Notes under the pieces: model-generated
The model's database searches: none
What the model was told of the DNA's origin: nothing
The model's input: only the letters and a program-made list of their open reading frames with translations
Made by a program: the position numbers and the translations under genes
Shown here: piece by piece, positions 10,622 through 26,797 of the stretch
How the letters are laid out: every line of letters starts with the position of its first letter
How positions within the stretch are numbered: the first letter of the stretch is position 1
IMG/VR virus record: IMGVR_UViG_3300009149_003803
Span: 1 to 33,250 of that record
Source: a virus
Direction: 5' to 3' (one strand)
Length of the DNA stretch: 33,250 nt

Positions 10622-13048
10622 TTAGAACTTATATGTAATTCTAATAGATGCATCTATCCCATTTGTAAATGTATTGGTTATCACATTACCAATATCAGTT
10701 TGTTGTTCTAATTTAAATGGAGTATTCAATACATTATTCAATCTCATAGATAAATTAAATTTATCCCTTTCCAAATTCCAAATCAAATTTAAAAAATGCT
10801 GAGGGGATTGGTAGATATCACCTAATCCAAATATTCCAACTGAAGATAATTTCTTACCAACATAATTGTAAGTGAAACCTAAATTAGATTGTTCTGATAT
10901 ATTATGGAATATATCCAAGTTAGATAAGATAGGAGTAGAACCTTGTAAAGGTCTATTCAAATTAGTTACCACAACCGATGAACCATTACTTTCGGCAATT
11001 TCAATATCTGAATGAAGTAGAGATAAATTATAATCAACATTCCAATCACCCCATTTCTTTTTCATCTCAAATTCTAACCCATATACATTAGACCCTATGG
11101 AATTTTGATATGTTTCCAATCTACCACTAGCAGTAGCAACATTAACTCTTTCTATGGGGTTTACAATTCGTTTACCAAATAGAGTTAAAGCTATTACCTC
11201 ACTACGAGTTGGAAAGAATTCAAAAGTTAAATCACCATTGTAAACTTTGGAGTTAATAAGATTTGGGTTTCCTTGAATCTTAGAACCAGCAAACACCTCA
11301 GTATAAATAAAAGGAGTTAGTTCTCTAAACCTCGGTCTGATAGTTGTTATTGATGTAGATGTTTTTAATTGAATCTTTTCACTAAGTTTAATCTTAGAGT
11401 TTAGATAAGGGAGAATCTCAATATCATTAAGTACACTTTGGCGAGTAAAAGTTGGAGAGAATTGGTCTTTGTAGGTTACAATTTGTATTGGATTCTCAAT
11501 TCTAATACCTCCACTTAAATCTAATTTATCTGATGTAAAATCTCCTTTATAGAATCCACCATTAATCATTGTATATCCATCTACTTTAGAAGCCGGATTA
11601 TTTACCAACAAGTTTATTGTGTTTGGATTATTAATATATTCTGAATAGTTATTTGGGTCAATTTCATATAATGCATTAATATTATTTAAATCATAATATT
11701 GTTGTGTATAATCAAATGAATTTAAAGCTATTTGATTAAACGCACCAAACAAATGATTTAGTTTATCCCCATCTAAATTTACTTCCAATGTAGTATTAAA
11801 TCTATTCTCAATATTTGTATTGCTAAAAAGATGATTATCTAACCTATCAATGTTATTGAATTGATATGTACCATCATATAAGAAAACATATTGCTCTCTA
11901 TCCTTTTCACCACTTTGTACTCTACTGTATGATGTCTTTAAATCAAAGATATCGTATCCAATTTTTAGTTGGTTGGTAAATAATGTGTGTTGTGTTGGTG
12001 TAATTCTAATTGTTTTTAAATCATTAGAATAATCAAAATGCCTTCCAAATGTTTCTCTATCTGATTTGCCGATTTGGGTAATAAAGATTGTAGAGTTTTT
12101 AATATCAAACTTATTCTTCATATAGTTCAATACTAAAATAGATGATGGAATGAGTTGAGTCCTCTTTTCATTAAAGTTGTAATCCAATAAATTACTACCT
12201 TGTTTATTTACTAATCGGATTATACCATCTCTATTCTGATTATCATGTAATAAATTAAATCCATAATAGATTCCGAAATCACCATCCTTACCCCATTGTA
12301 AAGAAAGATTAGAATTGGGTGTTGGTGTTTGTGAGTTAAGTGATACCCTATATCCTACATCAAATACATTTCTGATATTAACAGATGATATATCAATTTG
12401 AGCTCCACCAATATTACTCCATTGTTCTGATGAATATGATTTTTTAACTTTAATATTATCACTTAGTGCAGTTGGTAGAATATTTAAATCTATATTCTTC
12501 TTATCTGAATTGTTAGAAGGTAGTGGCATACCATTTAAGGTGATTTGATTGTATCTATCATCTAACCCTCTTACATTGATTCTATTGTTATCAAATGTAA
12601 TGCCTGATACTTTCTTCAATCCATCTTCTATATTAGATATCCCCTTCTTAGAGAGTTCTTCACCACCAATAGATGTTTCCACACCAACAACGTTCTTCTT
12701 CTCTAAAACCATAACAGTTTCACTTCTGGTGTTTCTTCTTGCTCTAATAATTACTTCATCTATTTGAGAAGATAATTTTATTAACGTAACATCTAATAAT
12801 CCACCACTTGTTGTTATTTCTTTAGTTTCATATCCTATAAAAGAAAAAATAACTACAACATTTTCCGATGGTAAATCTAAAGAATATAATCCATCAAAAT
12901 CAGATATAGTTCCGGTTACAGTTCCTTTTATTATAATATTAGAAAAAAGTATTGGTTGATTTTCCTCATCCAATACCTTTCCACTTATCGTTTGAGCGAA
13001 GGTTGGGGCTGATAATAATATCAGTAATCCCATTAAAAGTTTTTTCAT
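10622..13048 (-). CDS. TonB-dependent outer-membrane receptor
   Basis: An 808-residue outer-membrane transporter, read from ATG 13048. A signal peptide (MKKLLMGLLILLSAPTFAQ) is followed by a carboxypeptidase-regulatory-like domain (about 22-105; KVLDEENQPILFSNIIIKGT, FDGLYSL). Then comes a plug domain (about 130-230; INVRGLDDRYNQITLNGMPL) and a 22-strand-type beta barrel ending in aromatic ITYKF, as needed for outer-membrane insertion. Full length, no frameshift. Such receptors import large ligands using TonB energy from the host. It is 1 nt downstream of a beta-helix lipoprotein gene, its probable surface partner. The pair is bracketed by matching terminators. A complete receptor among phage genes is exceptional; substrate unknown. 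Confidence 0.93.
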   Translation of the reverse strand: MKKLLMGLLILLSAPTFAQTISGKVLDEENQPILFSNIIIKGTVTGTISDFDGLYSLDLPSENVVVIFSFIGYETKEITTSGGLLDVTLIKLSSQIDEVIIRARRNTRSETVMVLEKKNVVGVETSIGGEELSKKGISNIEDGLKKVSGITFDNNRINVRGLDDRYNQITLNGMPLPSNNSDKKNIDLNILPTALSDNIKVKKSYSSEQWSNIGGAQIDISSVNIRNVFDVGYRVSLNSQTPTPNSNLSLQWGKDGDFGIYYGFNLLHDNQNRDGIIRLVNKQGSNLLDYNFNEKRTQLIPSSILVLNYMKNKFDIKNSTIFITQIGKSDRETFGRHFDYSNDLKTIRITPTQHTLFTNQLKIGYDIFDLKTSYSRVQSGEKDREQYVFLYDGTYQFNNIDRLDNHLFSNTNIENRFNTTLEVNLDGDKLNHLFGAFNQIALNSFDYTQQYYDLNNINALYEIDPNNYSEYINNPNTINLLVNNPASKVDGYTMINGGFYKGDFTSDKLDLSGGIRIENPIQIVTYKDQFSPTFTRQSVLNDIEILPYLNSKIKLSEKIQLKTSTSITTIRPRFRELTPFIYTEVFAGSKIQGNPNLINSKVYNGDLTFEFFPTRSEVIALTLFGKRIVNPIERVNVATASGRLETYQNSIGSNVYGLEFEMKKKWGDWNVDYNLSLLHSDIEIAESNGSSVVVTNLNRPLQGSTPILSNLDIFHNISEQSNLGFTYNYVGKKLSSVGIFGLGDIYQSPQHFLNLIWNLERDKFNLSMRLNNVLNTPFKLEQQTDIGNVITNTFTNGIDASIRITYKF

Positions 13049-13049
13049 A

Positions 13050-14195
13050 TTATTTAATCCAACCAATCATCCATTCGGTACCTGAACCAATTGTTATATC
13101 GTTTATGAACCAAGAATCATCTAAAGTTGATGTTGTTTGTGAGAAATCACAATCTTTGAAATTAGTTCCATTGTTAGTAACTTCTGAATTTGCCACAAAT
13201 AGTTCACCACTACTAACATTATTTAAAGTGATTTGGTCTGAAACTCTAACTCCATACTTAGGGAATCCACTAATCGATGCATAATAAATTTTACCTTTAG
13301 TACCTTCTCTCAATCTCATACCAGTATTAGAACCATCTCCATCATCAACCCCAATTAAAGTAATGTTTGAAAGAGTTGGATTTGAGTAAGGAGATAAAGT
13401 ATTATCATCACCATTGTTATCGGCTTCAATACCTCTATCACCACCATCTGGTCCTTGCTGAACATACCAATATTGTCCTTTACCTCTCCAACCATGAGTC
13501 CAATCAAATGAATCATCTTGACTGTGAGTAGAAACCGCATATCTTACATTTACAGTTCCACCGAAGAATTCAATACCATCATCTGCTCCTTTATAGGATT
13601 GGATATATTCTACATCAGTTCCACTACCAACACCATTAAATGAGAATCCATTTAATTCATTATCAGTACCTAAGATTTTTCCAGCATACTCAACTCTAAC
13701 ATATCTTAAAGTACCTGAGTTATCCGAATCATCATCACCACCATAAATACCAGTACCACCTTCTCCTTCAGCAGTAAGACCTGTGTTTAATTTAGCAAAC
13801 CCATTGATGATAATTCCACCCCAAGTTCCATATGTTGGATTGTTTGAAAGAGGTGTGAATATGATTGGATTGTTTTGCGAACCTTGAATGTTTACTTTAC
13901 CTCCTTGCTGAACTGATAGGAAAGTTGTAACATTAGTATCTGCGTAAATTGTTTGTCCATCTAAGATAGAAAGTGTAAATCCATCTTCAACGAAAACACC
14001 GCCTGATAATAACCACTTATCAGAACTTGATAAAACCAAATCAATGTTGATGTTACCTTCTAATTTTTTATATAGAATACCATCAATATTCACATCCGAT
14101 ACGATGTAAGTTGTATTTTCTATTTCAATAATTTCTGGAGTACATGCCGTAAAAAAAGTTACTACGGTAATGAGGGTAAATAATAATTGTTTCAT
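13050..14195 (-). CDS. Surface lipoprotein with right-handed beta-helix, partner of the TonB receptor
   Basis: A 381-residue predicted lipoprotein: MKQLLFTLITVVTFFTAC with Cys18. The mature part is rich in short strands and turns (GGVFVEDGFTLSILDGQTIY, GGKVNIQGSQNNPIIF) typical of parallel beta-helices. It also has acidic Ca-binding-like stretches (GGDDDSDNSG, EADNNGDDN, GVDDGDGSN). In Bacteroidetes such lipoproteins are often encoded next to a TonB-dependent receptor and are thought to capture its ligand. Its stop is 1 nt from the receptor start, so the two genes form one transcript. Function beyond that is unknown. Confidence 0.8.
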   Translation of the reverse strand: MKQLLFTLITVVTFFTACTPEIIEIENTTYIVSDVNIDGILYKKLEGNINIDLVLSSSDKWLLSGGVFVEDGFTLSILDGQTIYADTNVTTFLSVQQGGKVNIQGSQNNPIIFTPLSNNPTYGTWGGIIINGFAKLNTGLTAEGEGGTGIYGGDDDSDNSGTLRYVRVEYAGKILGTDNELNGFSFNGVGSGTDVEYIQSYKGADDGIEFFGGTVNVRYAVSTHSQDDSFDWTHGWRGKGQYWYVQQGPDGGDRGIEADNNGDDNTLSPYSNPTLSNITLIGVDDGDGSNTGMRLREGTKGKIYYASISGFPKYGVRVSDQITLNNVSSGELFVANSEVTNNGTNFKDCDFSQTTSTLDDSWFINDITIGSGTEWMIGWIK

Positions 14196-25843: not shown

Positions 25844-25875
25844 TAAAAAAACCTCAGTCGGTTAGGACTGAGGTT
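25844..25875 (-). terminator. Terminator of the large RNA
   Basis: On the minus strand a perfect 10-bp stem, AACCTCAGTC (25875-25866) with GACTGAGGTT (25859-25850), and a 6-nt loop, is followed by seven T. It is a textbook rho-independent terminator and fixes the RNA's 3' end near 25844. Confidence 0.92.
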
Positions 25876-26760
25876 AAGGAAGATATATAATAGAGTATAG
25901 AACGCTGAGATTATACGTTTATAACGACTTGTCTTTAGTGAGATTACCCTATATCGGTTGCTCATGTATCCACTCTCGTTGCCGAAAGTATCAAGTCAGT
26001 GTCGGTTATTTGAGTGAACCACTCTTATCGTTAACAACCACTCAACTACTACTTTACTCTGTTAAACCTTGCGAGTTCACTAAGGGATTGCTATCCCACC
26101 AGGTATTTTGTAATCAACATCGGAAGACTTGCGGTCTTACAATGACTTCGTTAGTCTGACGACTCGAAGTGTTAGACACCTTTCGTTGTTAACGCCCGAA
26201 GAACTTTAGCTCTCTTTTATGTTTATATAAAAGTAACTATGGAAATTTGAAAGATGTGCTTCGGGAGAAGTTTCGTTTCTTTTGAAAACAAAATGCTTCA
26301 CACCTCTCTGTAAGTCTGTCAACCTACGGTATTTCAGGAACACGTTAACTTAACGTATCGGAATCCCCTCATACTGGTACTCAGCCCTACAACACCTGAC
26401 AGGGTGTGTCGAACCGTCACCTGTAGCTTTTCCTATTGATATCACTATCGCAACTCTGATATTCCATGGATTCAGAGTGGTCTCATCCCCTTAGCAGTTG
26501 CCCTTAGGGTCTCGACCGTAGCCACTTTGTTTAGTTGTCAGAGTAAACTCTGCGGATATTCACGGTATACTATTCCCGTTTCAATCCCTTTAGTCCCATT
26601 GCTGGGGTTATCTAACGACGCTAAACCGCCGGTAAATGTCTCACTTAACCTTTTAAGAAAAAAAGGGGTTAATCTTTTAAATTTCTTCCACAAACTGTGT
26701 TAGTTAAGATTGACATTAATAATATTTCAAAGAACATTTTCAGTACTCTTACTGATTTCT
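25844..26760 (-). ncRNA. Large structured non-coding RNA, about 915 nt
   Basis: No gene fits this stretch on either strand, yet it has higher GC, sharp ends and many short hairpins. The promoter is at 26766-26797 and the terminator at 25850-25875. Hairpins visible on the minus strand include: CCCA-GCAA-TGGG, a GNRA-type loop (26595-26606); CAGAG-TTTA-CTCTG (26539-26552); ACACC/GGTGT (26392-26407); ACGTTA/TAACGT (26342-26356); CTTC/GAAG (26255-26266); GGGAT/ATCCC (26084-26097); GAGTG/CACTC (26012-26024); TCAGT/ACTGA near the 5' end (26740-26755). A 7-nt word GGTTAAG near the 5' part (26650-26644) can pair with CTTAACC near the 3' end (25878-25872), closing the molecule. Size, shape and phage setting resemble the giant ornate RNAs GOLLD and ROOL. 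I cannot assign a family by eye. Confidence 0.8.
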
Positions 26761-26765
26761 TATGA

Positions 26766-26797
26766 CAAATGTAAAACAATTTTTTTAATCTGTCAAA
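26766..26797 (-). promoter_or_regulatory. Bacteroidetes-type promoter of the large RNA
   Basis: Minus strand: TTTG at 26797-26794, a 20-nt spacer, and TACATTTG at 26773-26766 match the Bacteroidetes consensus TTTG / TAnnTTTG at every fixed position. Transcription should begin near 26760, at the edge of the structured region. Confidence 0.85.

Follow-up and report, generated by a model that had tools for sequence, protein, structure and literature searches.

A divergent GOLLD RNA gene of a phage, with its own promoter, a boxA-like leader and its own terminator

Which RNA is made from a stretch of about 915 nt in which a viral genome holds no gene, and how would so long an untranslated RNA be transcribed to its end? 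The stretch lies in a 33,250-base virus fragment of IMG/VR (record IMGVR_UViG_3300009149_003803), the whole of which is referred to here as the window. A preliminary description of the locus proposed a giant structured noncoding RNA of the GOLLD and ROOL class, possibly a new family, with its own promoter and terminator. The window holds one GOLLD, and its RNA carries a leader element resembling the boxA of ribosomal RNA operons.

Family, transcription unit and phage context

The Rfam scan suggested in that description (for GOLLD, ROOL, OLE and HEARO) was run with cmscan on the whole window against Rfam 15. GOLLD (RF02032, gathering score 150 bits) is the sole match above the gathering score in the entire window, and it extends over the full model (positions 1-416) at 26308-25902 on the minus strand, with 298.4 bits and an E-value of 1.1e-84, delimiting the 3′ domain of the RNA. 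At thresholds as loose as E ≤ 10, no other family gave a convincing match in the interval, and ROOL, OLE and HEARO gave none. The placement among the giant structured RNAs therefore stood, whereas the possible new family was rejected by the match over the full model, the kind of confident hit that the description itself had named as refuting novelty, and since the RNA belongs to a known family, the claim of a new giant RNA falls. The size is normal at about 900 nt, the family having 'many members exceeding 800 nucleotides' (PMC12286853). That the RNA represents a giant family unrelated to GOLLD is extremely improbable: Rfam has no model for the 5′ half and the match is confined to the 3′ half, but it reaches twice the gathering score, the 5′ half can partly be aligned with its counterparts in other GOLLDs, and variability in this half is known for the family (PMC12286853). 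Within the already known GOLLD family, this RNA is a new member that falls in a divergent branch.

The gene is a single promoter-to-terminator unit on the minus strand, running from 26761 to about 25844 and specifying a noncoding RNA of about 918 nt. It is preceded at 26797-26766 (minus strand) by an exact consensus of the Bacteroidota sigma-A promoter (TTTG-N20-TACATTTG). This consensus occurs three times in 33 kb as compared to 0.85 expected, which is weak evidence taken alone; its -7 element, TAnnTTTG, is conserved upstream of the boxA-like element discussed below in 46 of 48 relatives as compared to 14% of control windows, at a distance of 13-92 nt in those 46 loci. Given the position of the -7 box determined in Flavobacterium (-12 to -5; PMC9723704), transcription is predicted to start at about 26761, where the host sigma-A RNA polymerase would initiate. 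The unit is closed on the minus strand by an intrinsic terminator at 25875-25850, a 10-bp stem followed by a T run, and the stem varies by compensation among relatives (CTCAGT/ACTGAG versus CTCGGTG/CACCGAG). No conserved reading frame was found across this unit in the window and its relatives. The longest stop-free run of the window's copy measures 91 codons (shuffles: median 77, 95th percentile 115), and the longest runs switch frame and strand from relative to relative; because these runs are shuffle-like in length and shift in this way, no conserved protein is encoded, and a protein-coding origin was rejected. Promoter, terminator and the absence of a gene, all three claimed beforehand, were borne out.

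The RNA is phage-encoded, the virus record containing lysozyme, endolysin and thymidylate synthase genes. Upstream of the GOLLD lie genes for a NUDIX hydrolase, an M23/peptidoglycan-binding endolysin and a phage lysozyme (27169-30790, likewise on the minus strand), and downstream lies thymidylate synthase. The GOLLDs of Acinetobacter phages and the abundant noncoding RNA of ICP1 are likewise found near lysis genes. tRNA genes, a usual but non-defining neighbour of GOLLD, are absent from the 33-kb window. Elsewhere in the window (10622-13066, minus strand), an 814-aa protein is encoded that combines a CarboxypepD_reg-like domain with a TonB-dependent receptor plug domain; phages seldom carry such a gene, and it hints at a Bacteroidota host.

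Relatives came from pattern scans of IMG/VR and from thymidylate-synthase neighbours; their records were then searched with RF02032, and a GOLLD above the cut-off was found in 27 of 50, 25 of 43 and 48 of 50 records in three sets. The closest relative, on a 57-kb contig, carries an RNA that is identical throughout. Most relatives of the same branch share 72-93% identity in the 3′ domain and 69-91% in the 5′ domain, and one (L195) shares 65% in both; for L144, L295 and others, which form a second branch, identity is about 53% in the 3′ domain (L144) and 44-49% in the 5′ domain. Named phages gave no DNA match to the RNA, and the Flavobacterium immuto phages, whose thymidylate synthase is the closest among isolated phages (51-58%), have no GOLLD. 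The sole pattern match in a bacterial genome, a Saprospirales MAG (L294), was dismissed as a chance match.

Several records stood out during the survey. A 59-kb phage contig (L218) contains two different GOLLDs (G113:19736-20149 and 36280-36673; 312 and 322 bits). The GOLLD of L190 is identical to that of L178 in its upstream part and L157-like in its downstream part, with the switch at -240 to -100 in the 5′ domain, and is either a recombinant or an assembly chimera. Full-length matches of 207-222 bits are present in the Acinetobacter phages Bestia (L325), AM24 (L327) and vB_AciJM_313 (L326), within tRNA arrays, unannotated in GenBank and without boxA. Two uncultured phage genomes of about 640 kb (LR756502.1 and LR745206.1; L328 and L329) have a GOLLD adjoining tRNAs.

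The 5′ domain and the pairing across the linker

As in other GOLLDs, a less conserved yet structured 5′ domain of about 400 nt lies upstream of the 3′ domain. Its core (26309-26630, minus strand) is outside the Rfam model and would be the cap domain by analogy with the env-38 GOLLD, which assembles in vitro into a hollow 14-mer cage of solved structure (PMC12286853). The core was aligned with 16 diverged relatives (17 sequences, alignment A2), and the RNAalifold consensus comprises 85 pairs, 33 of them with changes on both sides. Paired cells amount to 98.6%, the covariation score is 0.312 as compared to 0.148 in shuffles, and none of 500 shuffles reaches any of the five observed measures. These shuffles break the relatedness among the sequences; in a second control that preserves it, sliding the partner by one base, pairing falls to about 39%. 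By these measures, the 5′ half is conserved and structured. The GCAA tetraloop noticed earlier likewise belongs to a conserved hairpin (26607-26595, minus strand), with GNRA variants and covarying closing pairs among relatives.

Between the core and the boxA-like element lies the P1 arm (26636-26716, minus strand), whose hairpin persists while its sequence varies: individual folds show it as a local, strongly compensated hairpin in all 17 sequences, if weakly in L195. The heptamer GGTTAAG (26650-26644), for which a closing helix with CTTAACC near the 3′ end had been suggested, is part of the 3′ strand of P1 and is paired locally. The closing helix was given up, as many relatives lack GGTTAAG, and the trailer CTTCCTTAACC is conserved also in those.

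The 3′ domain contains the variable linker characteristic of GOLLD, an A+U-rich segment (26256-26204, minus strand) that is its most length-variable stretch (alignment A1); the env-38 GOLLD has a disordered linker at the same place (PMC12286853). The linker is flanked on the minus strand by CCCGAAG (26259-26265) and CTTCGGG (26195-26201), the 5′ and 3′ strands of a long-range pairing that the Rfam structure line for this match does not show. Complementarity across the linker is kept in 42 distinct GOLLDs in many sequence versions, among them CCTGAAG/CTTCAGG, CTCGAAG/CTTCGAG, CCGACAG/CTGTCGG, GACGGAC/GTCCGTC and GGTAGAC/GTCTACC, and the mean pairing score is 18.9 as compared to 13.8 when partners are exchanged among the sequences (15.1 at most in 300 exchanges). 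This pairing may coincide with, or lie close to, the L20-J13/15 kissing contact in the cage of env-38, and could form within or between chains.

A boxA-like element at the 5′ end

About +27 to +41 of the RNA (26721-26735, minus strand) is occupied by the boxA-like element GTTCTTTGAAATATT, a putative NusB-S10 site. Of 47 non-redundant GOLLD loci, 45 have the string GTTCTTTGA at the 5′ end of the RNA, where it precedes the Rfam match by 360-520 nt; of 580 flanking control windows, 3 contain it. In one locus (L322), GTTCTTACA stands in its place. The element sits just after the promoter, at a varying distance from the 5′ domain, and in some relatives it begins a few bases at most from where transcription is predicted to start. 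We take the form of GTTCTTTGA to agree with the boxA of rRNA leaders from other phyla.

The survey covered GOLLDs outside the Lactobacillales. Nearly all GOLLDs with their own promoter start with GTTCTTTGA, and most of those seen inside tRNA arrays are without the element; it is absent from the tRNA-array GOLLDs of the Acinetobacter phages and from the megaphage record LR756502, so that boxA as a requirement of all GOLLDs was rejected. The order in LR745206 is tRNA-boxA-GOLLD. A link between GOLLD and boxA was not found in the literature searched (open-licence papers, with subscription journals mostly outside), and the boxA leader looks like a new part of GOLLD, the same leader being present in most relatives.

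The same element precedes ribosomal RNA in the presumed host phylum. With the one-base variant GTTCTTTGG allowed, GTTCTTTGA occurs in 13 of 25 Bacteroidota 16S leaders (≤200 nt) as compared to 1 of 94 upstream windows, the exact string being present in only about half of the sampled leaders, and across the phylum it lies mostly 81-188 nt before the mature 16S, where boxA is expected. Two features of an rrn-type boxA unit, the boxA core of the host phylum and a promoter-proximal position before an untranslated RNA, are found at the GOLLD gene. A scan of the collected phage DNA for the promoter followed by GTTCTTTGA gave 59 distinct places associated with GOLLD and 19 further ones. Among the latter are phage tmRNA genes, tRNA arrays, one noncoding RNA, a few mRNAs and two GOLLDs truncated where their contigs end. 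Five of the tmRNA loci (L199:3906-4312 on the plus strand, L219 on the minus strand, L245:6495-6896, L204:847-1249 and L242:3542-3990) were confirmed by Rfam (RF00023, 72-117 bits), with the module 15-30 nt upstream. The distribution of GTTCTTTGA is more in keeping with a transcription element than with a component of the folded RNA.

The noncoding RNA returned by the scan (L131:5349-5780, plus strand) is about 430 nt long, has its own promoter and boxA, and directly follows a tRNA array. It has no Rfam match at the gathering score, and a motif like AATAATCC...GGGGGATAAGGTACA, resembling part of the GOLLD 5′ domain, is present in it twice.

Proposed mechanism and comparison with known systems

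Promoter, boxA-like element, 5′ domain, 3′ domain and terminator follow one another in this order and are conserved. The reading that we favour, with somewhat better than even confidence, is that of a GOLLD gene of a Bacteroidota phage, probably a marine flavobacterial one, that is led by boxA via NusB-S10 and whose product assembles into a hollow cage. boxA recruits NusB-S10; it is both required for the rRNA antitermination complex and sufficient for it, and it renders the polymerase resistant to Rho (PMC10250234, PMC10931766). Antitermination by boxA is proposed for GOLLD because an untranslated RNA of about 900 nt faces the same problem as rRNA. The host sigma-A polymerase would start at about 26761, and NusB-S10 (NusE) would bind the nascent GUUCUUUGA in the way known from rRNA operons, so that the polymerase would resist Rho over the long untranslated RNA, perhaps with a benefit to folding. 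The product of about 918 nt would fold into two domains, a cap from the 5′ part and a ring from the 3′ part, and, going by homology, its copies could assemble into a cage, as the env-38 RNA does in vitro. We infer NusB binding, Rho protection, RNA abundance and cage formation for this copy, which most likely is present as a stable and abundant RNA during the lytic phase. A Lactobacillus GOLLD accumulates in lytic infection yet is dispensable for phage production, according to work cited in PMC7567579, and proposed roles of the cage are the holding of tRNAs, ribosomes or other cargo (PMC12286853).

Two other readings accept the RNA as a GOLLD and assign the leader differently. Instead of a NusB site, GTTCTTTGA could be a structural or processing element (a pairing partner, a subunit contact or an RNase site), which is unlikely but carries real weight: the string is conserved as strongly as the RNA core, and in predicted folds it is hardly more single-stranded than the domain (mean unpaired probabilities of 0.45 and 0.41). 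The GOLLDs of tRNA arrays, however, manage without it, the same string heads the unrelated tmRNA, tRNA-array and 16S transcripts, and its place just past the promoter, with variable spacing to the domain, also counts against this reading. Still less probable is a main action on host translation, in which the boxA RNA would titrate NusB-S10 or hold ribosomes or tRNAs and so divert rRNA synthesis or translation. NusE is S10 (PMC10931766), GOLLDs often adjoin tRNAs, and GOLLD has reportedly been pulled down with ribosomes, as stated in PMC12286853; against this, several GOLLDs have no boxA, the window has no tRNA, and the Lactobacillus GOLLD is dispensable as cited above.

More broadly, it seems fairly likely that Bacteroidota phages place the rRNA boxA of the host before GOLLD, tmRNA and tRNA arrays, and thereby borrow antitermination for transcribing, and perhaps folding, RNA nanocages. 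The analysis adds to GOLLD a divergent branch from Bacteroidota phages whose 5′ domain lies outside the Rfam model and is supported by covariation, a covarying long-range pairing beside the linker, and a boxA leader common to the GOLLD, tmRNA and tRNA units of these phages. If the boxA works, it would explain how some 900 untranslated nucleotides escape Rho, and an orphan RNA cage would be tied directly to the host ribosome-synthesis factors NusB and ribosomal protein S10.

Among known systems, ROOL, OLE and HEARO are likewise large, ornate noncoding RNAs, and ROOL also forms a cage, but none of the three is matched in the interval. The env-38 GOLLD shares with the present RNA the full 3′ domain, a structured 5′ domain (about 450 nt), the place of the linker and the phage setting; it is shorter (833 nt as compared to about 918 nt), whereas the window's GOLLD differs in having its own promoter with boxA, its own terminator and no tRNA nearby. 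The 5′ domain in the window is 44-49% identical to those of the other phage GOLLDs tested and is likened to that of env-38 by description, not sequence; a homo-14-mer cage is so far described only for env-38. The leader resembles the rRNA boxA that binds NusB-S10, as GTTCTTTGA occurs in Bacteroidota 16S leaders, is promoter-proximal and heads a long untranslated RNA in both settings; in the window, it heads a phage noncoding RNA, with a putative role in antitermination.
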